From Caballeronia sp. M1242 (GTDB lineage Bacteria > Pseudomonadota > Gammaproteobacteria > Burkholderiales > Burkholderiaceae): a stretch of 64,000 bases of DNA. A program made the translations under genes and the position numbers. Where the stretch lies: NCBI RefSeq assembly GCF_017220215.1, contig NZ_CP071130.1, positions 558,001 through 622,000 on the forward strand, read 5' to 3'. The notes under the pieces are model-generated. The model was not told where the DNA came from, did no database searches, and was given only the letters and a program-made list of their open reading frames with translations. Shown here piece after piece: positions 1 to 59,514 of this stretch; positions within the stretch are counted from its first letter, which is position 1, and every line of letters begins with the position of its first letter.

Positions 1-730
1 CGCACGCATCGAGCATCGTGCGCACCAGCGCGCGCGCCGTATTCGGATACAGGGCGACGAAATCGCGCCGGCAGGCGAGCACCTTCTCAGGATGATCCGG
101 CCATATCTCGCTCGTATGGACGACCGTGCGTCCCGCGCCGCGCGCTTCGGCCACCGCATGCCACGGCTCGCCCGCGCAGAAGCCGTCGAGTGTGCCTTCG
201 GCGAGCGCCTCGGCCATGCGCGGCGGCGGAATCACCACGCTGCGCACGTCGCGCAGCGGATGCACGCCATTCGCCGCGAGCCAGTAGTAGAGCCACATCG
301 CATGCGTGCCGGTCGGGAACGTCTGCGCGATAACCGGCACGCGACCGAGCGATGCCAGCGCGTCCTTCACGCTGGCCCCTTCGCGGATCGCGTTGGCAAT
401 CGGATTCGAGAGCGTGATCGCCTGTCCGTTGCGATTGAGCACCATGAGCACGGCCATGTCGGCCTGCGGCCCGCCGATGCCGAGTTGCACGCCATACACG
501 AGCCCGTATAGCGCGTGCGCCGCGTCGAGTTCGCCCGACAGAAGTTTGTCGCGCACGACGGCCCACGACGGCTGCCGGCACAACTCGATCTCGATGCCGT
601 GGCGCTGTCCCATCTCGCGCAGCGCGGCGGCGGCGAGCGGCGCGGCGTCGCTGAGCGCGACGAAGCCGAGCCGCAGATGGGCGCGTTCGGGCGCGTGCGT
701 GGCAGATGAAGCGGATTTGGGCGAATTCAT
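1..730 (-). CDS. nasS: NasS-like nitrate-binding sensor (partial, C-terminus off the left edge)
   Basis: About 243 codons are visible, starting at the ATG at 730 (MNSPKSASSATH) and running off the window. The protein resembles the solute-binding part of NrtA/CmpA-type nitrate ABC transporters (LRLGFVALSDAAPLAAAAL near the N-terminus, later FPTGTHAMWLYYWLAANG and GFCAGEPW). No signal peptide is visible, which fits a cytoplasmic sensor rather than a transporter component. In known NasS/NasT pairs, NasS holds the ANTAR protein NasT inactive until nitrate or nitrite binds. The gene lies 20 bp downstream of nasT on the same strand, which supports that role. A transport-only role is less likely because no permease or ATPase gene is adjacent within view. 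Confidence 0.85.
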   Translation of the reverse strand, partial: MNSPKSASSATHAPERAHLRLGFVALSDAAPLAAAALREMGQRHGIEIELCRQPSWAVVRDKLLSGELDAAHALYGLVYGVQLGIGGPQADMAVLMVLNRNGQAITLSNPIANAIREGASVKDALASLGRVPVIAQTFPTGTHAMWLYYWLAANGVHPLRDVRSVVIPPPRMAEALAEGTLDGFCAGEPWHAVAEARGAGRTVVHTSEIWPDHPEKVLACRRDFVALYPNTARALVRTMLDAC

Positions 731-750
731 GACTTGATAGGGAGTACTTT

Positions 751-1326
751 CTAACCGAGCAGATCGGCCACGGAAAGAAGCTGACGGGCGATTTCCGCGA
801 CTTTCACGCCCTGATCCATCGCGCGTTTGCGCAGCGTGGCGTAAGCGTCGTTTTCCGACATGCCGCGCCGTTCCATCAGCAGACGCTTCGCGCGGTCGAT
901 CAGCTTGCGTTGCGCGAGTTCGTTCTCGACTTGTTCCAGCCGCAGCCGCAGCCGCGCCTCGTGAGCGAAGCGCGCGAGCGCGACCTCGATGATCGGCGCG
1001 AGCCGCTCGGGCGCGAGGCCCTCCACCGAATAGGCGGTCACGCCCGCGCCGACGGCCGCGCGGATGAACTGCTGGTCCGCGTCGTTGCTGAACATCAGCA
1101 CGGGGCGCGGGGCGGCCTGATTCATCACCGCGAGTTGTTCGAGCGTGTCGCGCGAAGGGGAGTCCGTGTCGATGATGACGACATCCGGCTTCTGGCTCTC
1201 GACGGCCGCATGCAGCTGGGCAGGCGCGGCGACCTCGGCGAGCATCTCATAGCCCATGCGGGCGAGCTGATCGCGAAGATCGCCGATGGGCTTGTCTGTG
1301 TCGGTGACGAGTAGGACGCGAAGCAT
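751..1326 (-). CDS. nasT: NasT-type ANTAR antiterminator response regulator
   Basis: 191 aa from the ATG at 1326 (MLRVLLVTDTDKPIG). An in-frame extension upstream to 1485 is possible but does not look like receiver sequence. The N-terminal half is a receiver-like domain (VVIIDTDSP carries the candidate acceptor aspartate). The C-terminal part is an ANTAR RNA-binding domain (AKRLLMERRGMSENDAYATLRKRAM). ANTAR proteins bind paired hexaloop stem-loops in leader RNA and prevent termination. Two such leaders lie at 2266-2367 and 2665-2781. The gene sits between cobA and nasS in one transcription direction, so it is probably under one of its own leaders. Confidence 0.9.
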   Translation of the reverse strand: MLRVLLVTDTDKPIGDLRDQLARMGYEMLAEVAAPAQLHAAVESQKPDVVIIDTDSPSRDTLEQLAVMNQAAPRPVLMFSNDADQQFIRAAVGAGVTAYSVEGLAPERLAPIIEVALARFAHEARLRLRLEQVENELAQRKLIDRAKRLLMERRGMSENDAYATLRKRAMDQGVKVAEIARQLLSVADLLG

Positions 1327-1432: not shown

Positions 1433-2218
1433 TCAGGCCGCGTGAGCGAAACCGTGCTCGCGGCGCGCCGCCGAATCAACCGCAAAGCCCACCGCTTCGC
1501 CGATCGCTCCGCCCACGAAGATCACAGCTGGGCTGCCGAGTCCGGCTGCCGCAGCATCGGTGGCGAGGCGATCGAGCGTGGTCACGAGCCGCTTCTCATG
1601 CGCCGAGCCCGCATGCTGAACGACCGCCGCCGGCGTGCTGGCGGGCAGCGCGTCGAGCAGCGTCGCCGCGATGCTCGCGATGCGGCTCATGCCCATGTAG
1701 ATGGCGAGCGTCATGCCGGTGGCCGCGAGCGCGCGCCAGTCGGGCTCGCCGTGGTCCTGCATGTGCGCGGTCACGAAGGTCACGCCCTGGCAATGATCGC
1801 GATGCGTGAGCGACACGCCGAGGCTCGCCGCCGCCGCAAAGCCCGACGACACCCCGTTGACGATATCCACCGGAATGCCTGCGCTGCGCAGCGCGGTCAA
1901 CTCCTCGCCTGCGCGACCGAAGAGCAGCGCGTCGCCGCCCTTCACGCGCACTACGTGCAGGCCCTTTTTCGCGTAACGCTGCATGAGGCGCTCGATGAAC
2001 GCTTGCGGCGTGGACTTGCAGCCGCCGCGTTTTCCCACGCGAATCACGCGAGCGCGCGGCGCGAGCGTGACGATGTCCTGATTCGCGAGGTCGTCGAGCA
2101 GCAGGATGTCCGCTGCGGCAAGCACCTTGGCGGCGCGGATGGTCAGCAGATCGAGGTCGCCCGGGCCTGCGCTCAGCAGCGTGACTTTGCCTGGGTTCTT
2201 CGCGGGAGTGGTGCTCAT
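1433..2218 (-). CDS. cobA: Uroporphyrinogen-III C-methyltransferase
   Basis: 261 aa from the ATG at 2218 (MSTTPAKNPGKVTLL). The SUMT signature SAGPGDLDLLTIRA lies close to the N-terminus and the core VVRVKGGDALLFGRAGEE further on, typical of single-domain CobA/SirA methylases of about 260 aa. The enzyme methylates uroporphyrinogen III at C2 and C7 to precorrin-2, the branch point to siroheme and cobalamin. Here it heads the unit that continues into nasT and nasS (106 bp to nasT). It is divergent from nirB, whose product needs siroheme, so the likely purpose is siroheme supply during nitrate growth. The leader carries a NasT-type antitermination element. Confidence 0.92.
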   Translation of the reverse strand: MSTTPAKNPGKVTLLSAGPGDLDLLTIRAAKVLAAADILLLDDLANQDIVTLAPRARVIRVGKRGGCKSTPQAFIERLMQRYAKKGLHVVRVKGGDALLFGRAGEELTALRSAGIPVDIVNGVSSGFAAAASLGVSLTHRDHCQGVTFVTAHMQDHGEPDWRALAATGMTLAIYMGMSRIASIAATLLDALPASTPAAVVQHAGSAHEKRLVTTLDRLATDAAAAGLGSPAVIFVGGAIGEAVGFAVDSAARREHGFAHAA

Positions 2219-2265: not shown

Positions 2266-2298
2266 AAAGCGTCCGCTCGTGTCGGGCACGAGGGACGC
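2266..2298 (-). terminator. Leader terminator of the cobA-nasT-nasS unit, overlapping hexaloop stem-loop P2
   Basis: On the minus strand GCGTCC-CTCGTG pairs with CACGAG-C-GGACGC around the loop CCCGA, followed by a short T run (TTT). Its 5' arm uses the same bases as the 3' arm of the P2 hexaloop hairpin at 2293-2306, so the two structures exclude each other. It lies about 50 bp before the cobA start. This is the geometry expected for antitermination by an ANTAR protein. The short T run makes it weaker than the matching element on the other side. Confidence 0.75.
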
Positions 2299-2367
2299 CG
2301 TTGTCCGTGGTTCGCAGTCGGTGCGTTCGATCCGTCAATACTCATGCGCCAACGGCGCCGTTGCCGT
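2293..2367 (-). promoter_or_regulatory. NasT (ANTAR) target leader, cobA side: two AACGGC hexaloop hairpins
   Basis: P1 at 2352-2367 is stem ACGGC / loop AACGGC / stem GCCGT. P2 at 2293-2306 is stem GGAC / loop AACGGC / stem GTCC. Both loops have A at position 1 and G at position 4, the bases known to be conserved in ANTAR-binding hexaloops. The linker between the hairpins is 45 nt. P2 overlaps the terminator at 2266-2298. The element starts only a few bases after the predicted start of the sigma-54 transcript. Confidence 0.85.
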
Positions 2368-2381
2368 GGCCTTCGTTTCAA

Positions 2382-2397
2382 TGCAATAAGCGGGCCA
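2382..2397 (-). promoter_or_regulatory. Sigma-54 (-24/-12) promoter for cobA-nasT-nasS
   Basis: Minus-strand TGGCCC-GCTTA-TTGCA matches the RpoN consensus (TGGCAC-N5-TTGCA) with the exact 5-bp spacer and both invariant GG and GC pairs. Transcription would start near 2371, just upstream of hairpin P1. Confidence 0.82.
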
Positions 2398-2497
2398 TTT
2401 TCTTTGCAGATGCCGTTCGCCACGAAGAAGTCGCGCGGACAATGGGTATCAGCGTGCGCTAACCGGTTCGTACACATGCGGCCATGCATCGCCCTTC

Positions 2498-2580
2498 GCA
2501 CGCGATGAGTGCTGCGTCGCACCATCGCTGTGCCGGCGTGCATCCGAATGCGACGCGCGATGAATGCACGCATCGAGTGC
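2498..2580. promoter_or_regulatory. Three NtrC-type enhancer dyads between divergent sigma-54 promoters
   Basis: Three copies of GCAC-N7-GTGC, the NtrC core palindrome, lie at 2498-2512, 2519-2533 and 2566-2580. The first two are 21 bp apart centre to centre (two helical turns) and the third 47 bp further. They sit about 80-150 bp upstream of both predicted start points, a normal distance for NtrC bound as oligomers, and can serve both directions. Confidence 0.75.
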
Positions 2581-2633
2581 GCGCTCGTTGCCGAGCCTTA
2601 TGCAGCAAGCGAAAGCGGGCGATGCCACGCGCA

Positions 2634-2649
2634 TGGCATAGCCCTTGCC
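2634..2649 (+). promoter_or_regulatory. Sigma-54 (-24/-12) promoter for the nitrate/nitrite assimilation operon
   Basis: TGGCAT-AGCCC-TTGCC has the GG and GC pairs at the correct -24/-12 spacing. The predicted transcript start near 2660 is five bases before hairpin P1 of the leader. Confidence 0.82.
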
Positions 2650-2664
2650 TTTAGTCTCGCCATC

Positions 2665-2736
2665 GGATCAACGGCGATCCGTCCTGAACATAGCGCCCGG
2701 CTGATTGAAGCCAAGTGGGCACGGACAACGGCGTCC
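2665..2736 (+). promoter_or_regulatory. NasT (ANTAR) target leader, nitrate transporter side: two AACGGC hexaloop hairpins
   Basis: P1 at 2665-2680 is GGATC / AACGGC / GATCC, and P2 at 2723-2736 is GGAC / AACGGC / GTCC. The hexaloops are identical to those in the opposing cobA leader, and 18 bases around P2 are an exact inverted copy of 2291-2310. The linker is 42 nt. The 3' arm of P2 is also the 5' arm of the terminator at 2730-2781. Confidence 0.87.
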
Positions 2737-2781
2737 CCTGCATCTGGCCATCGGCCCGATGCGCGGGACGCCTTTCTTTTT
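2730..2781 (+). terminator. Leader intrinsic terminator before the nitrate transporter gene
   Basis: A long interrupted stem: GGCGTCCC (2730-2737) pairs with GGGACGCC (2765-2772), with inner helices GCATC/GATGC and GGCC/GGCC, followed by TTTCTTTTT (2773-2781). It ends 11 bp before the start codon, so it can only serve to abort transcription in the leader. It is mutually exclusive with hexaloop hairpin P2. Confidence 0.88.
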
Positions 2782-2792
2782 GCGGAAAGACG

Positions 2793-4118
2793 ATGGATAA
2801 AGCCACCCGAATCGATCTATTCAGCTTGCGCACGGCGCCTATGCGCGCCTTCCATCTCACGTGGATGGCGTTCTTCGTGTGCTTCTTCGCGTGGTTCGCG
2901 TGCGCGCCGCTCATGCCGCTCATCAAGCGCGAATACGGACTCAACGCGGACCAGATCGCCAACATCAACATCGCGGCGGTCGCGGTGACGATTCTCGTGC
3001 GGCTCGTGGTCGGCCCGATGTGCGACCGCTTCGGCCCGCGCAAGGTGTATAGCGCGCTGTTGCTCGTCGGCGCGGTGCCGGTCATCGGCGCGGCGCTTTC
3101 CACGGGATACGACAGCTTCTTGTGGTGCCGGCTCGCGATCGGCGCTATCGGCGCGAGCTTCGTCATCACGCAGTACCACACGTCGGTGATGTTCGCGCCG
3201 AACGTCGTCGGCACGGCCAACGCGACGACCGCAGGCTGGGGCAACGCAGGCGCGGGCGCGGCGCAAGCCGTCGTGCCCTTGCTCGTTGCGGCGGCGATCG
3301 CATTGGGCGCAGGTGAAGCATCGGCATGGCGTATCGCGCTCATCGTGCCCGGCCTGGCGATGCCTGTGATGGCCTTCTTCTACTGGCGTTATACGCAGGA
3401 CTGTCCGCAAGGCGACTTCGCGCAACTGCGTCGCGCGGGCATCGCCATCGACGGCGGCAAGAAGGGCGGCTGGCAGAGCTTTGTGACCGCGTGCGTGAAC
3501 TATCGCGTATGGATGCTCTTCGTGACGTATGGCGCGTGCTTCGGCGTCGAGGTGTTCATCCACAACATCGCGGCGGTCTATTATGTCGATCACTTCGGGT
3601 TGTCGCTGGGTCAGGCGGGCATGGCAGCGGGCAGCTTCGGCTTGCTTGCGTTGTTCGCCCGCGCGCTCGGCGGCTGGCTCTCGGATAAGGCCGCCGCGCG
3701 GCGCGGTCTCGACATTCGCGCGACGCTGCTCTTCGTGCTGATCGCGGGCGAGGGCGTCGGTCTCTATGCGTTCGCGCATGCGGACAGCATCGCGCTTGCC
3801 GTCATCGCGATGATCGCGTTCGGTCTCTTCACGCACATGGCATGCGGTGCGACGTATGCGCTCGTGCCGTTCATCGACCGCAAGGCGCTCGGCGGCGTGG
3901 CCGGCGTGATCGGCGCGGGCGGCAATGCGGGCGCGGTAGCCGCGGGCTTTCTGATGAAAGGCGTCGGCAACGTGCAGCAGACGCTTTCGCTGCTCGGCGT
4001 GCTGGTCGCGGGCTCTGCGTTGTGCGCCATCGCCGTGCGCTTCTCTCCCGAACACAAGGCACGCGAAGCCGCGCTGCGCGAAAGCGCGCTCGCAGTCAAT
4101 AACGGCGTTGCCCACTGA
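2793..4118 (+). CDS. MFS nitrate/nitrite transporter (NarK/NasA family)
   Basis: 441 aa from the ATG at 2793 (MDKATRIDLFSLRTAPMRAFHLTW), preceded by GGAAAG. A farther in-frame ATG at 2715 lies inside the leader hairpin region and is rejected. The protein is a 12-segment major facilitator. The opening WMAFFVCFFAWFACAPLMPLIK, then RLVVGPMCDRFGPRKVY, and the glycine-rich segment AGWGNAGAGAAQ are typical of nitrate/nitrite porters. It is the first gene of the operon leading into nirB, nirD and nasA, 15 bp before nirB, and therefore most likely imports nitrate for assimilation. Confidence 0.92.
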   Translation: MDKATRIDLFSLRTAPMRAFHLTWMAFFVCFFAWFACAPLMPLIKREYGLNADQIANINIAAVAVTILVRLVVGPMCDRFGPRKVYSALLLVGAVPVIGAALSTGYDSFLWCRLAIGAIGASFVITQYHTSVMFAPNVVGTANATTAGWGNAGAGAAQAVVPLLVAAAIALGAGEASAWRIALIVPGLAMPVMAFFYWRYTQDCPQGDFAQLRRAGIAIDGGKKGGWQSFVTACVNYRVWMLFVTYGACFGVEVFIHNIAAVYYVDHFGLSLGQAGMAAGSFGLLALFARALGGWLSDKAAARRGLDIRATLLFVLIAGEGVGLYAFAHADSIALAVIAMIAFGLFTHMACGATYALVPFIDRKALGGVAGVIGAGGNAGAVAAGFLMKGVGNVQQTLSLLGVLVAGSALCAIAVRFSPEHKAREAALRESALAVNNGVAH

Positions 4119-4133: not shown

Positions 4134-6674
4134 ATGAAGATCGTTGTCATCGGCCACGGGATGGTCGGCCATAAATTCCTCGAATGCCTCGCTGAAAGCG
4201 CCAACGAAGCACTGCATGTCACGGTGCTGTGCGAGGAACCGCGCGCAGCGTACGACCGCGTGCATCTGTCGGAGTTTTTCGCGGGCAAGTCGGCGGACGA
4301 CCTCTCGCTCGTCGAAGCGGGCTTCTTCGAGCGTTGCGGTTACGCGCTGAAGCTGAATGCCAGAGCCGTCGCGATAGACCGCGCGGCGCGCACCGTCACG
4401 ACATCGACCGGTGAAACGCTCGCCTACGACAAGCTCGTCCTGGCGACCGGATCGTATCCCTTCGTCCCGCCGGTAGAAGGTAAGGACCGCGAAGGATGTT
4501 TCGTCTATCGCACGATCGAAGACCTGCAAGCGATGCAGGCATTCGGCGCGCGTTCGAAGACGGGCACGGTGGTGGGCGGCGGTTTGCTCGGGCTCGAAGC
4601 CGCGAAGGCGCTGCGCGACATGGGGCTTCAAACGCACGTCGTCGAATTCGCGCCGCGCCTGATGGCCGTGCAGGTGGACGAAGGCGGCGGCCGCGTGCTG
4701 CGAAGCAAGATCGAGGCGCTCGGCGTGACGGTGCATACGAACCGCAACACGCTTGCCATCGTCGACGGCGAAGGCGCGGTCAACCGCATGAACTTCGCGG
4801 ACGGCGCGCATCTCGACACGGACATGATCGTGTTCTCCGCAGGCATTCGTCCGCGCGACGATATCGCGCGTTCCGCAGGCCTCGAAGTCGGCCCGCGCGG
4901 CGGCATCGTGATCGACGACGCCTGCCGCACGAGCGACGAGCATATCTACGCGATCGGCGAATGCGCATCGTGGAACGGCCAGGTGTTCGGCCTCGTCGCG
5001 CCGGGCTACGACATGGCGCGCATCGTCGCGAAGCAGTTGCTGGGCGAAGAGGCGTCGTTCGTGGGCGCGGACATGAGCACGAAGCTCAAGCTGATGGGCG
5101 TGGACGTGGCGAGCATCGGCGATGCACACGCGAAGACGCCCGGCAGCCGCTCGTATCAATTCAGCGATGAACGCAAGCAGGTCTACAAGAAGCTCGTCGT
5201 ATCGGAATGCGGCAAGTATTTGCTCGGCGGCGTGATGGTCGGCGATGCGACGGAATACGGCACGCTCTTGCAGTTGATGCTGAACAAGATGGAATTGCCC
5301 GAAGCGCCGGAATTCCTCATTCTTCCGCAAGCAGACGGCAAGGCCAAACCGGCGCTCGGCGTCGAGGCATTGCCGGACGCAGCGCAGATCTGCTCGTGCA
5401 ACAACGTGAGCAAAGCCGAGATCTGCGCGGCGGTCTGCGCGGGCGCGACGAGCATCGGTGCATTGAAGAGCGCGTGCAAGGCGGGCGCATCGTGCGGCGG
5501 CTGCGTGCCGCTCGTCACGCAAGTGATGAAGTCGGAGATGAGTCGTCAGGGCCTGGCGGTGAACAATCACCTGTGCGAACACTTCGCTTATTCGCGGCAA
5601 GAGCTGTATCACATCGCGCGAGTCGAAGGACATCGCACGTTTGCGTCCCTGCTCGCGAAACACGGCAAGGGCCTTGGCTGCGATATCTGCAAGCCCGTGG
5701 TCGCAAGCATTCTCGCTTCGTGCTGGAACGAATTCGTGCTCAAGAAAGAGCACGCCAGCTTGCAGGATTCGAACGACTACTACCTCGCCAACATTCAGCG
5801 CGACGGCACGTATTCCGTCGTGCCGCGCATGGCGGGCGGGGAAGTCACGCCCGATGGCCTGATTGCCGTCGGTCAGATCGCGAAGAAATACGGGCTCTAC
5901 ACGAAGATCACCGGCGGGCAGCGTGTGGATATGTTCGGCGCGCGCGTCGAGCAATTGCCGCTCATCTGGGAGGAACTCATTGCGGCCGGCTTCGAATCCG
6001 GACATGCGTACGGCAAGGCGCTGCGCACGGTGAAGTCGTGCGTCGGCTCGACGTGGTGCCGCTACGGAGTCGGCGATTCGGTCGGCCTCGCGGTGCAACT
6101 CGAAAATCGCTATAAGGGCTTGCGCACGCCGCACAAGATCAAGTTCGGCGTATCGGGCTGCACGCGCGAATGCGCCGAAGCGCAGGGCAAAGATATCGGC
6201 GTCATCGCGACCGAGAAAGGGTGGAACCTGTACGTCTGCGGCAACGGCGGCATGAAGCCGCGTCACGCGGAACTGCTCGCGTCCGATCTGGATCAGGCGA
6301 CGCTCGTGCGTTACATCGATCGCTTCCTGATGTTCTACGTGCGCACCGCCGACCGCCTGCAGCGTACGAGCGTATGGCGCGACAACCTCGAAGGCGGTCT
6401 GGACTATCTGATCGATGTGGTCGTCAACGACAAGCTCGATATCGCCGATGAACTGGAAGCCGAGATGCAACTCGTCGTGGATACGTACGAAGACGAGTGG
6501 AAGAAGGCCGTCACCGACCCCGAAACGCGCAAGCGCTTCCGTCACTTCGTGAACAGCGACAAGGGCGATGAAACCGTGACCTTCGTGGAAGAGCGCGGCC
6601 AGATCCGGCCCGCGACGCCGGATGAACGCAAGACGAAGCGCATCGATATTCCCGTGGTTGTCGAAACCGTCTGA
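4134..6674 (+). CDS. nirB: NADH-dependent nitrite reductase large subunit
   Basis: 846 aa, the usual NirB length. The order of domains is: FAD/NAD(P)H-binding region with an N-terminal VVIGHGMVGHKF nucleotide-binding turn; a BFD-like [2Fe-2S] domain with C420, C422, C454 and C457 (CSCNN ... CGGC); and the sulfite/nitrite reductase half, whose siroheme/[4Fe-4S] ligands are C636, C642, C676 and C680 (CVGSTWC ... CTREC). It reduces nitrite to ammonium with NADH in the cytoplasm. It lies between the transporter gene and nirD (15 bp to nirD) and is controlled from the upstream NasT leader. Siroheme supply comes from the divergent cobA. Confidence 0.96.
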   Translation: MKIVVIGHGMVGHKFLECLAESANEALHVTVLCEEPRAAYDRVHLSEFFAGKSADDLSLVEAGFFERCGYALKLNARAVAIDRAARTVTTSTGETLAYDKLVLATGSYPFVPPVEGKDREGCFVYRTIEDLQAMQAFGARSKTGTVVGGGLLGLEAAKALRDMGLQTHVVEFAPRLMAVQVDEGGGRVLRSKIEALGVTVHTNRNTLAIVDGEGAVNRMNFADGAHLDTDMIVFSAGIRPRDDIARSAGLEVGPRGGIVIDDACRTSDEHIYAIGECASWNGQVFGLVAPGYDMARIVAKQLLGEEASFVGADMSTKLKLMGVDVASIGDAHAKTPGSRSYQFSDERKQVYKKLVVSECGKYLLGGVMVGDATEYGTLLQLMLNKMELPEAPEFLILPQADGKAKPALGVEALPDAAQICSCNNVSKAEICAAVCAGATSIGALKSACKAGASCGGCVPLVTQVMKSEMSRQGLAVNNHLCEHFAYSRQELYHIARVEGHRTFASLLAKHGKGLGCDICKPVVASILASCWNEFVLKKEHASLQDSNDYYLANIQRDGTYSVVPRMAGGEVTPDGLIAVGQIAKKYGLYTKITGGQRVDMFGARVEQLPLIWEELIAAGFESGHAYGKALRTVKSCVGSTWCRYGVGDSVGLAVQLENRYKGLRTPHKIKFGVSGCTRECAEAQGKDIGVIATEKGWNLYVCGNGGMKPRHAELLASDLDQATLVRYIDRFLMFYVRTADRLQRTSVWRDNLEGGLDYLIDVVVNDKLDIADELEAEMQLVVDTYEDEWKKAVTDPETRKRFRHFVNSDKGDETVTFVEERGQIRPATPDERKTKRIDIPVVVETV

Positions 6675-6689
6675 ACTCAGGAGCACACC

Positions 6690-7034
6690 ATGAACGACCG
6701 TATCGAACCGGACTGGACCGCCGTTTGCGAACTGGACGATATCGTGCCCGACACGGGCGTCTGCGCGCTCGTCAACGGCGCGCAGGTCGCCGTGTTTCAC
6801 GTCGCGGCGGATTCGAACACGGTGTATGCCATCGATAACGTCGACCCGCACTCGCAGGCCGCCGTGCTCTCGCGCGGCATCGTCGGCAGTCTCGGCGAAC
6901 GCATTGTCGTGGCGTCGCCGCTCTACAAACAGCACTTCGATCTGCGCACGGGCGAATGCCTCGAAGCGCCGGAGCGTTCGGTCAATGCGTATCGCGCGCG
7001 CGTCGCGGGCGGCAAAGTCTGGATCGCGGCATGA
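6690..7034 (+). CDS. nirD: Nitrite reductase small subunit (Rieske-like)
   Basis: 114 aa from the ATG at 6690 after AGGAGCACACC, a clear ribosome site. It matches NirD in size and pattern (CELDDIVPDTGVCALVNGAQVAVF, later YKQHFDLRTGECLEAPERSVNAY). NirD has a Rieske fold but lacks the iron-sulfur ligands in enterobacterial forms. Here too no CxH...CxxH pair is present, so it is a structural partner of NirB. Its stop overlaps the start of the next gene (ATGA at 7031-7034). Confidence 0.93.
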   Translation: MNDRIEPDWTAVCELDDIVPDTGVCALVNGAQVAVFHVAADSNTVYAIDNVDPHSQAAVLSRGIVGSLGERIVVASPLYKQHFDLRTGECLEAPERSVNAYRARVAGGKVWIAA

Positions 7035-8293
7035 GAACCGAATATGCGGTTGCGGCTGCGGCAGGCGCGGCTCGCGCCGAGAGGCAAAAGCTCGTGGTGG
7101 TCGGCAACGGCATGGCCGGCATGCGCACCGTCGAAGAGTTGCTGAAGATCGCGCCCGAGCTGTACGACATCACCGTGTTCGGTGCCGAACCTCACGGCAA
7201 CTACAACCGCATCATGCTTTCGCCGGTGCTCGCCGGTGAAAAGAGCATCGACGACATCGTCATCAACACGCGCGAATGGTACGACGCGAATGGCATCACG
7301 CTGCATGCGGGCGATGCGGTCGTCGAAATCGATCGTGCGCGCCGTATCGTACGCTCCGAGAAGGGACGCGAGGCCCGATACGACCGCTTGCTGATCGCGA
7401 CCGGATCGACGCCGTTCGTGATTCCCGTGCCGGGGCGCGATCTTGAAGGCGTCATCGCGTTTCGAGACATTCAGGATGTCGAAACAATGCGCGAGGCCGC
7501 GCGTCATCATCGGCGTGCCGTTGTCATCGGTGGCGGACTGCTCGGACTCGAAGCGGCGAACGGGTTGCAGCGGCAGGGCATGTCCGTGACCGTCGTGCAT
7601 GCGAGCGATAGCCTGATGGATCGGCAACTCGACGCGAGTGCGTCCGCGTTGCTCAAGCGTTCGCTCGAAGCAAAGGGCCTGTGCTTTGCGATGGCCGCGC
7701 AAACCACCGAGATCGTCGGCGAGGAACGCGTGCGTGCCGTGCGTTTTGCCGACGGCACGGAGATCGAGGCTGACCTCGTCGTGATGACCGCCGGCGTGCG
7801 CCCGAATATCGCGCTGGCGAAGGCTTCGGGTCTGCACTGCGATCGCGCGATCGTCGTGGACGATACGCTGCAAACGTTCGATCCGCGCGTGTATGCGGTC
7901 GGCGAATGCGTGCAGCATCGCTCGGCCACGTTCGGTCTGGTCGCGCCGATCTGGGATCAGGCGCGCGTGGCCGGCGCGCATCTCGCAGGCGCGGGGCATC
8001 GGCGTTACGTGCAGCGTGCAACCGCGACGAAGCTGAAAGTGACCGGCGTAGACCTGTATTCCGCAGGCGATCTAATCGGTGGCGAAGGCAGCGAAGATCT
8101 CGTGCTGCGCGACCCGCGCCGCGGCGTGTACAAGCGACTCGTGCTGCAAGCGGGCCGCGTCATCGGCACGGTCCTGTATGGCGACGTGAAGGACGGCGGC
8201 TGGTACTTCGATCTGATTCAGAGCGGCACGGATGTTTCGCGCTATCGCGACCGATTGTTGTTCGGCAAGACACTTTGCGAAGGGGCCGCATGA
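7031..8293 (+). CDS. FAD/NAD(P)H-dependent oxidoreductase, probable nitrate reductase electron-transfer subunit
   Basis: 420 aa from the ATG at 7031, translationally coupled to nirD. The N-terminal KLVVVGNGMAGMRTVEELL and the central VVIGGGLLGLEAANGLQ are the two dinucleotide-binding motifs of the NirB-N-terminus/rubredoxin-reductase family. GVRPNIALAKASGL and YAVGECVQH are also typical. It is homologous to the flavin half of NirB but stands alone. It also overlaps the nitrate reductase gene by four bases (ATGA at 8290-8293), so the likely job is passing electrons from NADH to NasA. In Klebsiella and Bacillus the equivalent roles are filled by NasC and NasB, so no symbol is given. Confidence 0.82.
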   Translation: MRTEYAVAAAAGAARAERQKLVVVGNGMAGMRTVEELLKIAPELYDITVFGAEPHGNYNRIMLSPVLAGEKSIDDIVINTREWYDANGITLHAGDAVVEIDRARRIVRSEKGREARYDRLLIATGSTPFVIPVPGRDLEGVIAFRDIQDVETMREAARHHRRAVVIGGGLLGLEAANGLQRQGMSVTVVHASDSLMDRQLDASASALLKRSLEAKGLCFAMAAQTTEIVGEERVRAVRFADGTEIEADLVVMTAGVRPNIALAKASGLHCDRAIVVDDTLQTFDPRVYAVGECVQHRSATFGLVAPIWDQARVAGAHLAGAGHRRYVQRATATKLKVTGVDLYSAGDLIGGEGSEDLVLRDPRRGVYKRLVLQAGRVIGTVLYGDVKDGGWYFDLIQSGTDVSRYRDRLLFGKTLCEGAA

Positions 8294-11037
8294 GTAGCAT
8301 CGACATCATTCCCATCACGCGCGCCGATCCGGTCGGCGTACGCACGACATGCCCTTATTGCGGCGTGGGATGCGGCGTCGTCGCGACACGGCGCACGCCG
8401 GTCGACGTTGCGATTGCAGGCGACGAAGCGCATCCGTCGAACTTCGGCCGTCTATGCGTGAAAGGCTCGGCGCTCGGCGATACGGTCGGCCTCGAAGGGC
8501 GGCTGCTGCATCCAAAGCTGCGCGACAAGGCGACGGGCGAGCTCAGCGACGTGTCGTGGGACGATGCGATCGGCACGGTGGCGAGCGGCTTTGCGCGGAT
8601 TATCGCCGAACACGGGGCCGATGCCGTCGCGTTCTATGTGTCCGGGCAACTGCTGACCGAGGACTACTACGTCGCGAACAAGCTCATGAAGGGCTATATC
8701 GGCAGCGCGAACATCGATACGAATTCGCGGCTCTGCATGTCGTCGTCGGTGGCGGGGCACAAGCGCGCATTCGGCGAAGACCTGGTGCCGATGAACTACG
8801 AAGACCTCGAACTCGCGGACCTGATCGTGCTCGTCGGATCGAACACGGCGTGGTGCCATCCGATCCTTTTTCAGCGCATGATGAAGGTGAAGGAAGCGCG
8901 GCCGGACGTGAAGATCGTCGTGATCGATCCGCGCTACACCGCGACGTGCGAGATGGCGGACCTGCATCTCCCATTGAAACCCGGCAGCGACGTCCGGCTT
9001 TTCAACGGACTGTTGGCGTTTCTCGCGGCGCATGGCGCAACGGATGCCGCGTTCGTCGACGCTCATACCGATGGCTACGACGCGGCGCTTTCGGCAGCGG
9101 GAGCCGCGGACATCGAACAAGTGGCGCGCGACTGCAAGGCGGATGCGCACGACCTGCTCGCGTTCTATCGACTCTTCACGCGCACCGAGCGTGTCGTCAC
9201 GGTCTATTCGCAAGGCGTCAATCAATCGAGCGCGGGAACGGACAAGGTCAACAGCATCATCAACTGTCATCTGGCGACGGGGCGCATCGGCAAGCCGGGC
9301 ATGGGACCTTTCTCGTTCACGGGCCAGCCCAATGCGATGGGCGGCCGCGAAGTCGGCGGCCTCGCCAACACCCTCGCCGCGCATCTCGAACTGGATAACG
9401 CGATGCACCGCGACACGGTGCAGACGTTCTGGTCTTCGCCACGCATGGCTGCGCGCTTGGGTCTGAAAGCCGTCGAACTGTTTGACGCCATCGAAACGGG
9501 CCGCGTGAAGGCAGTGTGGATCATGGGCACGAATCCGGTGGTGAGTCTGCCCGACGGCGATCGCGTCAAGCGGGCGCTCGACAAGTGCGAACTGGTCGTC
9601 GTATCGGACATCATCGAGAAGACGGACACCAATGCCTTCGCGCATGTGCTGTTGCCCGCGCTCGGATGGGGCGAGAAGGAAGGAACGGTGACCAACTCGG
9701 AACGGCGCATCTCGCGTCAACGCGCGTTTCTGCCCGCGCCGGGACAAGCGCGTGCCGACTGGCGCATCATCTGCGATGTCGCGCGGCGCATGGGCTTCGA
9801 TGGTTTCGACTTCGACGCGCCGCACGAGATTTTCGATGAGCACGCGCGTCTTTCCTCGTATCGCAACGATGCGGGAAGCGGCGTGTATCGCGCATTCGAT
9901 ATTGGCGGGCTGAGCGATCTGACACGCGAGCAGTTCGATGCACTGGAGCCGGTGCAATGGCCGCTTCCTGCCACGAAAGCCGCCAGCAGCACGCGCTTAT
10001 TCGAAACGGGCCGGTTCAGTCATGCGGACGGCCGCGCGCGTTTCATCGCAACGCCGCCGCGCGCGCCCGTCAATGCGGCTGACAGCGAATATCCGTTCGT
10101 GCTCAATACCGGACGCGTGCGCGACCAGTGGCACACGATGACGCGTACGGGTCGTTCAGCAAAGCTCGCAGGACATATCAGCGAGTCGTTCCTCGACATG
10201 CATCCGCAAGACGCGCTCGCATGCGGCGTGCGTGAAGGCGAACTGGCGCGGATCACGAGCCGCTGGGGTTCGATGATCGCTCGCGTGCAACACAGCGGCG
10301 GCATGCAGCGCGGCAGCGTCTTCGTGCCGATTCACTGGAACGACCAAGTAGCATCGGATGCGCGCGTGGGCGCAGTAGTGAATCCCGTTGTCGATCCGGT
10401 GTCGGGCGAGCCCGAGTTCAAGCATACGCCCGTGGCCGTCGAGAAATTCCATGTGACGTGGCACGGTTTCTCGCTTTCGCGCAGCACGCCGGTGCTCGAT
10501 TCGGTCACGCACTGGACGCGCGTTCATGGCGACCGTTTCATGCGTTATGAACTCGCAGGACGCAATCGCTTCGATGCGTCGCATGACAATCATCACGACT
10601 GGGCGCGCGCGTTTCTCGGCGTCGACGATCCGCACGCCGACTGGATCGAGTATGAAGACAAGAGCGCGGGCGTGTATCGCGCGGCGCATGTGGTGAACGA
10701 TCGCATCGAGAGTTGCGTGTTCATCAGCGAGCGCCCGGACCTGCCGGCGCGCGCATGGCTCGCGAGTCTCTTCGATAAGGAGCGTCTGAGCGATGAAGAC
10801 CGCGCGAGCCTCTTGCTCGGTCAAGCCATCGGCAAGGGCGAGGATACGGGACCGACGGTGTGCTCGTGCTTCGGCGTGGGCCGCAAAACGATCTGCAACG
10901 CGATCCGCGAGAAAGGGCTGAAAACAGCGGCGCAAGTCACCGCCTGCGTGAAGGCGGGCGGCAATTGCGGGTCGTGCGTGCCGGAGTTGAAGAAGCTCAT
11001 CGTGGAGACAGAGATGGCACAACTGAGCGTCGGTTGA
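8290..11037 (+). CDS. nasA: Assimilatory nitrate reductase catalytic subunit with C-terminal [2Fe-2S] domain
   Basis: 915 aa from the ATG at 8290. Cysteines C21, C24, C28 and C56 (CPYCGVGC ... GRLCVKG) bind the N-terminal [4Fe-4S] cluster. The molybdopterin-binding core follows (YVSGQLLTEDYYVANKLMKG, IMGTNPVVSLPDGD) and then a molydopterin dinucleotide-binding C-lobe. A BFD-like [2Fe-2S] domain closes the protein, with C858, C860, C893 and C896. This is the cytoplasmic bis-MGD enzyme that reduces nitrate to nitrite. It is the last gene of the operon and ends 13 bp before a convergent sensor-kinase gene. Confidence 0.94.
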   Translation: MSSIDIIPITRADPVGVRTTCPYCGVGCGVVATRRTPVDVAIAGDEAHPSNFGRLCVKGSALGDTVGLEGRLLHPKLRDKATGELSDVSWDDAIGTVASGFARIIAEHGADAVAFYVSGQLLTEDYYVANKLMKGYIGSANIDTNSRLCMSSSVAGHKRAFGEDLVPMNYEDLELADLIVLVGSNTAWCHPILFQRMMKVKEARPDVKIVVIDPRYTATCEMADLHLPLKPGSDVRLFNGLLAFLAAHGATDAAFVDAHTDGYDAALSAAGAADIEQVARDCKADAHDLLAFYRLFTRTERVVTVYSQGVNQSSAGTDKVNSIINCHLATGRIGKPGMGPFSFTGQPNAMGGREVGGLANTLAAHLELDNAMHRDTVQTFWSSPRMAARLGLKAVELFDAIETGRVKAVWIMGTNPVVSLPDGDRVKRALDKCELVVVSDIIEKTDTNAFAHVLLPALGWGEKEGTVTNSERRISRQRAFLPAPGQARADWRIICDVARRMGFDGFDFDAPHEIFDEHARLSSYRNDAGSGVYRAFDIGGLSDLTREQFDALEPVQWPLPATKAASSTRLFETGRFSHADGRARFIATPPRAPVNAADSEYPFVLNTGRVRDQWHTMTRTGRSAKLAGHISESFLDMHPQDALACGVREGELARITSRWGSMIARVQHSGGMQRGSVFVPIHWNDQVASDARVGAVVNPVVDPVSGEPEFKHTPVAVEKFHVTWHGFSLSRSTPVLDSVTHWTRVHGDRFMRYELAGRNRFDASHDNHHDWARAFLGVDDPHADWIEYEDKSAGVYRAAHVVNDRIESCVFISERPDLPARAWLASLFDKERLSDEDRASLLLGQAIGKGEDTGPTVCSCFGVGRKTICNAIREKGLKTAAQVTACVKAGGNCGSCVPELKKLIVETEMAQLSVG

Positions 11038-55066: not shown

Positions 55067-55094
55067 TTTACTTTGCCCGCAATCGTCCTAGAAT
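55067..55094 (+). promoter_or_regulatory. Candidate promoter of cbtBA
   Basis: TTTACT and TAGAAT with a 16-bp spacer; transcription would start close to the 5' edge of the riboswitch at 55098. Confidence 0.45.
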
Positions 55095-55097
55095 GGC

Positions 55098-55201
55098 AAG
55101 CTTGCAGTGCGAGGAAGCCGGTGCAAGCCCGGCACGGTCGCGCCACTGTAAGCGGCTTTCGTGAGAACGACGGTCCGCGAGTCAGACCCCGCTGCAAGCT
55201 C
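55098..55201 (+). ncRNA. Cobalamin riboswitch (compact form) upstream of cbtBA
   Basis: The closing stem is a perfect 9-bp helix (55099-55107 with 55192-55200). Inside are GCCGGTGCAAGCCCGGCACGG, the conserved GCCACTG (55142-55148) and AGTCAGACCCC (B12-box-like, 55180-55190). This is the arrangement found ahead of cbtAB cobalt transporter genes. It ends 40 bp before the cbtB start, so translation control is possible. Confidence 0.85.
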
Positions 55202-55241
55202 TTTCGTCTATTGGGACGCGCTTTTCCCTCGGAGAAAATCA

Positions 55242-58782: not shown

Positions 58783-58844
58783 GCGTCCCTCGCGGATGGC
58801 GGCGTTCGGCGAAGGCATCACGATGGCGAGATGCGCTTCGTCCC

Positions 58845-59040
58845 CTGCGCTGGCCGGTATCCGGGCTTGCGGCCGTCATCGCGCAGCCTTCCCACCGTGA
58901 ACGGGCAGTGGCCGTGTGCGCCATGCGCGATATCGTGCAAGCCGATACCGCCGGTCGCGTACCGTTGCGGGGACAGCACAGGTTGGCGAGCGCTTGCATG
59001 ATCGTGAAGACGCCGCTTCCTGTTTCCCGTTTAACTGCGC
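58845..59040 (-). ncRNA. Cobalamin riboswitch upstream of cobE-cobO-cobB
   Basis: On the minus strand, in order: GTTAAACGGGAAACAGGAAG, CCAACCTGTGCTGTCCCCGC followed by AACGGTACGCGACC, GGCCACTG, GGGAAGGCTGCGCG, and the B12 box AAGCCCGGATACCGGCC (58852-58868). All core elements of the cobalamin aptamer are present. It faces a second copy at 59180-59385. Confidence 0.92.
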
Positions 59041-59114
59041 GTTTCGTGTGAACGCGCGAGCACCAGTCGCGCGCCAACGATACCACATGCCCCCGCTTTT
59101 CGGCGGCGCTTTCC

Positions 59115-59143
59115 TTGACGCTCCTTCGTGAGGAGCCTAGACT
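59115..59143 (+). promoter_or_regulatory. Candidate sigma-70 promoter for cobW-cobN
   Basis: TTGACG and TAGACT with a 17-bp spacer, about 37 bp before the riboswitch 5' edge. Confidence 0.6.
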
Positions 59144-59179
59144 TCACGCAGTTCTGGTGCCCGCGTGCGAGCTTCTTTC

Positions 59180-59385
59180 GCGCGCAGTTAAACGGGAAGC
59201 AGGAAGCGCATCGCTCCATCATGCGATCGGACGCGCGCCAACCTGCGCTGCCCCCGCAACGGTAAGCGACCGGCGGTATCGGCGAGTACGATATCGCGCG
59301 TTGCGCACGAAGCCACTGTCGGTACACGGCAGGAAGGCTGCGCAACGAGGTCCCAAGCCCGGATACCGGCCAGACTTTCGCAGGG
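59180..59385 (+). ncRNA. Cobalamin riboswitch upstream of cobW-cobN
   Basis: In order: GCGCAGTTAAACGGGAAGC, CCAACCTGCGCTGCCCCCGC followed by AACGGTAAGCGACC, AAGCCACTG, GGCAGGAAGGCTGCGC, and the B12 box AAGCCCGGATACCGGCC near 59355-59371. It is highly similar, including the variable arms, to the divergent riboswitch at 58845-59040. A GCCGC/GCGGC hairpin downstream (about 59392-59407) may belong to the expression platform. Confidence 0.93.
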
Positions 59386-59514
59386 CCCACGCCGCGGGGA
59401 TGCGGCATGTCCCATGATCCATCAGTCGTGCGCTTTTTCCCGCAGATCTCGCCGGCGATACCTTCCTCGCGCGACGCACGCACGACGCACGCATACACGA
59501 GCCACGGAGCGACG

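Follow-up and report, generated by a model that had tools for sequence, protein, structure and literature searches.

We found that the intergenic region between the divergent cobA-nasT-nasS and transporter-nirBD-nasA genes of Caballeronia sp. M1242 carries two back-to-back RNA leaders, which we interpret, with a probability of about 0.84 on comparative sequence evidence, as NasT-type antitermination leaders under NtrC-sigma54 control. One nitrate-responsive protein would then switch on nitrate uptake and reduction, a cofactor operon and itself together. The features are collected in Table 1, with positions in the window, i.e., the whole stretch of 64,000 nucleotides that was analysed.

Table 1. 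Genes, promoter elements and leader hairpins at the left end of the window.
Feature	Position	Strand	Basis
nasS, NMT1-like nitrate sensor, cut by window start	1..730	-	domains
nasT, receiver-like domain plus ANTAR	751..1326	-	domains
cobA, uroporphyrinogen-III C-methyltransferase (siroheme)	1433..2218	-	profile matches
Left terminator-like hairpin, overlaps P2, followed by weak U-tract TTTGCGCGTT	2269..2298	-	fold
Left leader P2 hairpin, hexaloop AACGGC	2293..2306	-	sequence, nearly invariant in relatives
Left leader P1 hairpin ACGGC-AACGGC-GCCGT, hexaloop AACGGC	2352..2367	-	sequence, pair counts in relatives
Sigma54-type -24/-12 site TGGCCCGCTTATTGC, cobA-nasT-nasS operon	2383..2397	-	site on this side in 22/22 loci
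NtrC-like site GCAC-N7-GTGC	2498..2512	.	pattern and conservation
NtrC-like site, 21 bp from the 2498..2512 site	2519..2533	.	pair so spaced in 22/22 loci
Third NtrC-like site	2566..2580	.	absent from some relatives
Sigma54-type -24/-12 site TGGCATAGCCCTTGC, transporter-nirBD-nasA operon	2634..2648	+	site on this side in 22/22 loci
Right leader P1 hairpin CGGATC-AACGGC-GATCCG, hexaloop AACGGC	2664..2681	+	sequence, pair counts in relatives
Right leader P2 hairpin GGAC-AACGGC-GTCC, hexaloop AACGGC	2723..2736	+	sequence, nearly invariant in relatives
Right intrinsic terminator and U-tract	2730..2781	+	5' arm begins within P2 loop
MFS transporter, NarK-like	2793..4118	+	NCBIfam TIGR00886, 290.7 bits (cut-off 311.7)
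nirB	4134..6674	+	profile matches
nirD	6690..7034	+	profile matches
NAD(P)H/FAD oxidoreductase, nasB-like; start codon provisional	7022..8293	+	domains
Molybdopterin oxidoreductase with BFD domain	8290..11037	+	nasA by context

An ANTAR protein with a receiver-like domain adjoins an NMT1-like sensor, the arrangement of a NasS-NasT system. Since NCBIfam at 1e-20 returned nothing for either product, the names NasT and NasS rest on domains, context and homology. We assign the molybdopterin oxidoreductase as the assimilatory nitrate reductase NasA by its context, its matches to the nitrate reductase models of NCBIfam scoring below the cut-offs.

An ANTAR target has been defined as two hairpins with A at position 1 and G at position 4 of the loop (PMC3369931). 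Both leaders carry two such hairpins, P1 and P2, and all four loops read AACGGC with these two bases, as an earlier note on this DNA had claimed. The intergenic region holds four AACGGC hairpins with at least 4 bp; first-order Markov versions of this sequence gave one such hairpin in 231 of 20,000 cases and never two or more, and a stricter search for the module returned one match when run on a single strand of each of four mononucleotide shuffles of the window. The P1-P2 linkers, 41 and 45 nt long from the coordinates, fall outside the short EutV type, in which they measure 5-12 nt and an extension to 14 impaired induction, while the bioinformatic target definition permits a variable linker (PMC3369931). 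The 18-bp inverted copy around P2 that had also been described proved exact (CACGGACAACGGCGTCCC at 2720-2737 on the plus strand and 2292-2309 on the minus strand). It appears to reflect two similar P2 elements; a separate DNA element was ruled out, as the two P2 loops differ in relatives (AATGGC on the left and AACGGC on the right in locus L033).

The further claim that P2 shares bases with an intrinsic terminator on each side held in full on the right. There, P2 overlaps a strong terminator (hairpin at 2730-2772, dG -33.6, then TTTCTTTTT to 2781), and the leader folds better than its shuffles (z -4.23, 0 of 200 equally good). On the left, a terminator-like hairpin does overlap P2 (2269-2298, dG -19.8), but the U-tract TTTGCGCGTT that follows is poor, with three T in eight bases, and the left terminator is eroded in some relatives; the fold of this leader is not better than that of shuffles (z -1.01, 32 of 200 equally good). 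The right P1-P2 linker forms a hairpin of its own in the window fold (2695-2720) that might draw the two stems close to each other. In the RNAalifold prediction for 25 right leaders no hairpin appears in this linker, and we do not claim it as conserved.

NasT was sought in 120 genomes of the family and, besides the window's own, 69 genomes matched at E 1.9e-36 or better, 48 of them at 62% identity or more and 21 at 37-43%. We examined 60 loci, namely all 48 of the former and 12 of the 21 latter. The two operons are divergent in 21 of these 60 and in the window, giving 22 divergent loci with 44 leaders. Counted from the first base of the sigma54 site, an A..G hexaloop on at least 3 bp comes 35-38 bases downstream in 43 leaders; in the remaining one, the right leader of L079, the hexaloop sits on a mismatched stem. 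P2 was found by rule in 43 of the 44 as well, the left leader of L062 retaining three of four pairs, and it overlaps the terminator in all 22 right leaders.

Stem pairing was assessed in an alignment of 50 rows, comprising 10 of 27 Rfam narK matches, chosen by eye, and 40 of 67 located leaders, which had been picked by promoter and loop; a P1 stem was not required of these, and the 3' arm of P2 was used in part to find that hairpin. We found 97.6% of 497 cells paired and two-sided changes in seven of the ten pairs, five of six in P1 and two of four in P2, the latter amounting to three cells only. Covariation reached 0.587 against 0.185 in shuffles, none of 500 being as high, and slid controls were also far lower. 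The left leaders alone (23 rows, L079 being left out for its long linker) are 97.4% paired, with 18 two-sided cells in the P1 stem (0 of 500 shuffles); their number of two-sided pairs was matched by 32 of 500 shuffles. For the right leaders alone (25 rows) the figures are 98.8% paired and five two-sided cells (1 of 500 shuffles), the pair number being matched by 71 of 500, and RNAalifold recovered P1 and P2 unaided. The expected covariation of the stems in related genomes is thus strongly borne out for P1; P2 hardly varies and shows few compensatory changes, so in these alignments the case for its stem comes from conservation more than from covariation. Pairs that RNAalifold drew at columns 3-15 lie within the promoter and correspond to the sigma54 element, and were rejected as RNA structure.

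A feature that the earlier note had not mentioned is that each leader sits behind a sigma54-type promoter, with a pair of NtrC-like sites between the two. Both promoters match GG-N10-GC, which we take to be the consensus of the -24/-12 element. All 22 divergent loci have a sigma54-type site on both sides and, between them, an NtrC-like pair 21 bp apart. Over the whole window neither pattern is in excess (NtrC-like, 5 against 2.95 expected; sigma54-like, 5 against 3.09 expected), so the weight of these sites comes from their position and conservation.

RNA-seq of an ntrC mutant of B. cenocepacia H111 gave log2 changes of -11.4 for cobA, -8.1 for nasT and -4.2 for nasS, and of -6.6 for the transporter, -6.5 for nirB, -6.8 for nirD and -6.7 for the nitrate reductase (PMC5491218). 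Both H111 operons, which we take as orthologous to those of the window by gene name and locus-tag order, are strongly NtrC-dependent in these data. The cells had been shifted to low ammonium, and nitrate is not mentioned in the available part of that report (PMC5491218). The experiment is therefore no test of NasT, and the strong NtrC response of the structural genes suggests that nitrate need not dominate there.

We propose that the region operates as a bidirectional element with two inputs. When nitrogen is limiting, NtrC would bind in the space between the two divergent sigma54 promoters and activate both, a step based on the conservation described here and on the published RNA-seq in a relative, and each transcript would start almost directly with P1, followed by P2. 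Judging from homologous systems, in the absence of nitrate NasS would hold NasT and the P2 region would refold into the terminator. In its presence free NasT, probably a dimer, would bind the P1 and P2 hexaloops, hold P2 and block the terminator. Rightwards, this would release transporter-nirBD-nasA; leftwards, it would release cobA, providing siroheme for NirB, and nasT-nasS themselves in a positive feedback loop, the co-transcription of cobA-nasT-nasS being deduced from gene order. Because the left terminator is weak, basal NasT and NasS would be made before nitrate arrives. The region would offer a compact model of two-signal control, with nitrogen lack acting at initiation and nitrate at elongation; the NtrC-like sites lie between two leaders of unequal strength, and the positive self-control of NasST is directly testable.

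Whether self-control is what the left leader serves may be judged from the position of nasT. We considered 49 family loci, the window and the 48 whose NasT shares 62% identity or more. In 42 of them a leader on the same strand precedes nasT, in two gene orders: 22 are divergent, 17 collinear, and three (L041-L043) have the leader just past the fetched stretch. In the other seven, no leader was found upstream of nasT in the stretch examined. These counts, together with a Pseudomonas leader directly before nasS-nasT, argue against the idea that the real target is cobA, for siroheme alongside NirB, with nasTS placed downstream later and the feedback incidental. On the other hand, in five Paraburkholderia-type loci (L236, L237, L238, L241, L242) a cobA leader is divergent from nirBD-nasA with a 21-bp NtrC-like pair, nasTS is absent from the fetched stretch and nasT lies on another contig; hence self-control may be secondary. 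We would give this possibility somewhat less than even odds, and it is compatible with the NasT-NtrC reading.

The two leaders differ in their terminators. At least five T are present in the eight bases after the hairpin in 22 of 22 right leaders and in 9 of 22 left ones, and the median is 6.5 T of eight on the right against 4 on the left (Wilcoxon p 0.0004), where four left leaders with no qualifying terminator count as 0 and related genomes are treated as independent. The median terminator dG is -33.6 on the right (n=22) and -21.2 for the 18 left leaders having one; in the left leaders of L061, L064 and L066 no hairpin with at least three T in the next 10 bases was found. Left-hand control is probably leaky. 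Such leakiness would have a use, since some NasT has to be present before any leader can respond to it; the weakness may also be simple decay, which fits some relatives better. One might therefore regard the right leader alone as a working attenuator and the left one as a decaying relic, with cobA-nasT-nasS under NtrC and sigma54 only, a view favoured by the weaker left U-tracts, by the degenerate left leaders in several of the 22 loci and by the C. glathei locus L119, where neither a cobA match nor a leader before nasT was found at 5500-6001 and a sigma54-like site lies shortly upstream. We consider this unlikely in view of the compensatory P1 changes within the left leaders alone, the A..G hexaloop that all 22 of them have where it is expected (though this pattern is also the search rule) and the T-rich left terminators of L039, L040, L044, L045, L049 and L079. 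For the left leader we lean towards working attenuation. An effect of the hairpins on RNA stability or translation, or a role of the conserved blocks as DNA sites, with antitermination playing no part, is very improbable given the P2-terminator overlap on the right and the covarying P1 stem, even though actinobacterial ANTAR target RNAs are said to work at translation or transcription (PMC8164766).

The earlier note had suggested a covariance-model search for ANTAR targets and a single NasT for both operons. Our covariance model R1 found exactly the two leaders in the 5.76-Mb genome (E 7e-17 and 1e-13, these values being rough), with no further NasT target below E 1.15, the value of the next match. 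The genome encodes two ANTAR proteins, NasT and one that appears AmiR-like by context, which, as we read the translations at its locus (L002), has an ABC-type binding protein and an amidase-like gene as neighbours. Together with the stem covariation and the gene content, the single NasT and the two leader sites support control of both operons by one NasT, as far as sequence can tell. At E 0.01, R1 matches 77 of the 120 family genomes; the 11 genomes of the same genus (the window's and 10 others of the 120) have exactly two matches each, several of them having been in the training set, and 58 of 80 named NasT loci match, some being training rows. A match to the Rfam family 'SpR20', aligned mainly to the sigma54 site, was taken as chance.

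Two RNA families in Rfam share the anatomy of the window leaders, with a sigma54 site, paired AxxGxx hexaloops and an overlapping terminator. The narK RNA (RF03032) has the P1 loop AACGGC and a second hexaloop hairpin and is commonly next to nasT; the window leaders differ in having a longer P1-P2 linker and in scoring 22.2 and 17.5 bits, below the gathering score of 43.2. Against P11 (RF00625), whose hexaloops are mostly AACGAN and AAAGGC and which precedes nasB/nirB-like genes in Pseudomonas, they score 18.4 and 13.8 bits, the gathering score being 70. In 200 Burkholderiales genomes, narK RNA was found at E 0.001 in 23, three above the Rfam threshold. NasT (E 1e-25) is present in 20 of these 23 against 53 of the 177 others (Fisher p 1.7e-7), and nasT lies within 5.5 kb of narK in 18 of the 20; the remaining three have NasR-like NIT-ANTAR proteins, which were sought in the narK-positive genomes only. 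Rfam draws the 3' part of narK RNA unpaired, yet all four P2 pairs form in 22 of 27 hits (the 23 and four from named Pseudomonas loci), with the mis-registered L095 and L110 retained in this count. Such pairing is a better test than A1 and G4, present in 26 of the 27 but not independent, because the P2 loop letters are part of the Rfam consensus. A terminator-like hairpin starts in P2 in 21 of the 23 narK hits against 541 of 2300 random positions. One match (L115), with a pilin-like peptide downstream and lacking a terminator, is probably false and was retained in all counts.

Among 79 genomes from the genus of P. arsenicoxydans, 70 have a narK match and 58 a P11 match. Out of 30 narK loci examined, 28 fit the pattern, all with nasT upstream and a transporter downstream. 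Among 30 P11 loci, 26 fit, all with a P2 hexaloop and a nasB/nirB-like gene downstream and 25 with the terminator pattern; the other four do not fit, although they have matches to nirB and nasB. The P1 of P11 is less sure, since the only candidate is an AGAGAA loop in four of the 26. R1, whose training set contained no P11 sequence, detects the P11 in L168 (E 2.7e-7). A further narK match, on the same strand and 1.9-2.8 kb upstream of the first, is present in 19 of the 79 genomes, and in all 19 (L304-L322) a T-run comes after the match and nasS, then nasT, follow. A narK-type leader with a terminator also precedes nasS-nasT in Pseudomonas L162 (4642-4713) and L168 (4637-4713), unlike L158, where no such leader was found.

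Based on these comparisons, narK RNA and the P11 'sRNA' are most likely ANTAR leaders, to which NasT may bind. We consider it likely that they are nitrate-responsive NasT/NasR leaders near-fixed behind sigma54 promoters, and that NasT commonly reads through its own leader, forming a positive-feedback switch across Burkholderiaceae and Pseudomonas. Two RNA families listed in Rfam by name only would thereby gain a candidate binding protein. The literature that we searched did not tie narK RNA or P11 to any ANTAR protein, although an earlier description is possible.

The ANTAR two-hairpin antiterminator is already known as a kind, and Burkholderia is among its predicted carriers (PMC3369931). In Pseudomonas aeruginosa, NasT is reported to control nirBD-PA1779-cobA (Romeo 2012); as proposed for the window, nitrite reduction genes and cobA are under NasT antitermination, whereas in the window cobA heads a divergent transcript of its own that has a separate leader and also includes nasT-nasS. 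The Klebsiella oxytoca NasR-nasF leader is likewise nitrate-dependent, with an ANTAR protein, A at 1 and G at 4 of the hexaloop and a terminator, but its regulator is a one-protein NIT-ANTAR and a single leader is described there (PMC3369931). In Paracoccus, nitrate separates NasT from NasS, and the nasA leader is a binding target of NasT (PMC3795266), in line with our proposal, as is the NtrC input in Paracoccus denitrificans; in contrast, nasTS form a separate transcriptional unit there, and the leader hairpins lie between nasTS and nasA (PMC5424462). In the literature searched we found no description of the divergent pair, its unequal terminators or the self-control; an earlier one is possible.

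Two further observations concern other leaders. Three tandem A..G hexaloop hairpins, not two, occur near nasT in L138, L142, L146, L147, L178, L180, L187, L191, L192 and L195. The window also holds three cobalamin riboswitches (55088-55210, 58835-59082 and 59138-59388), of which the last two are divergent and 55 bp apart, a second back-to-back arrangement of RNA leaders in the same stretch.
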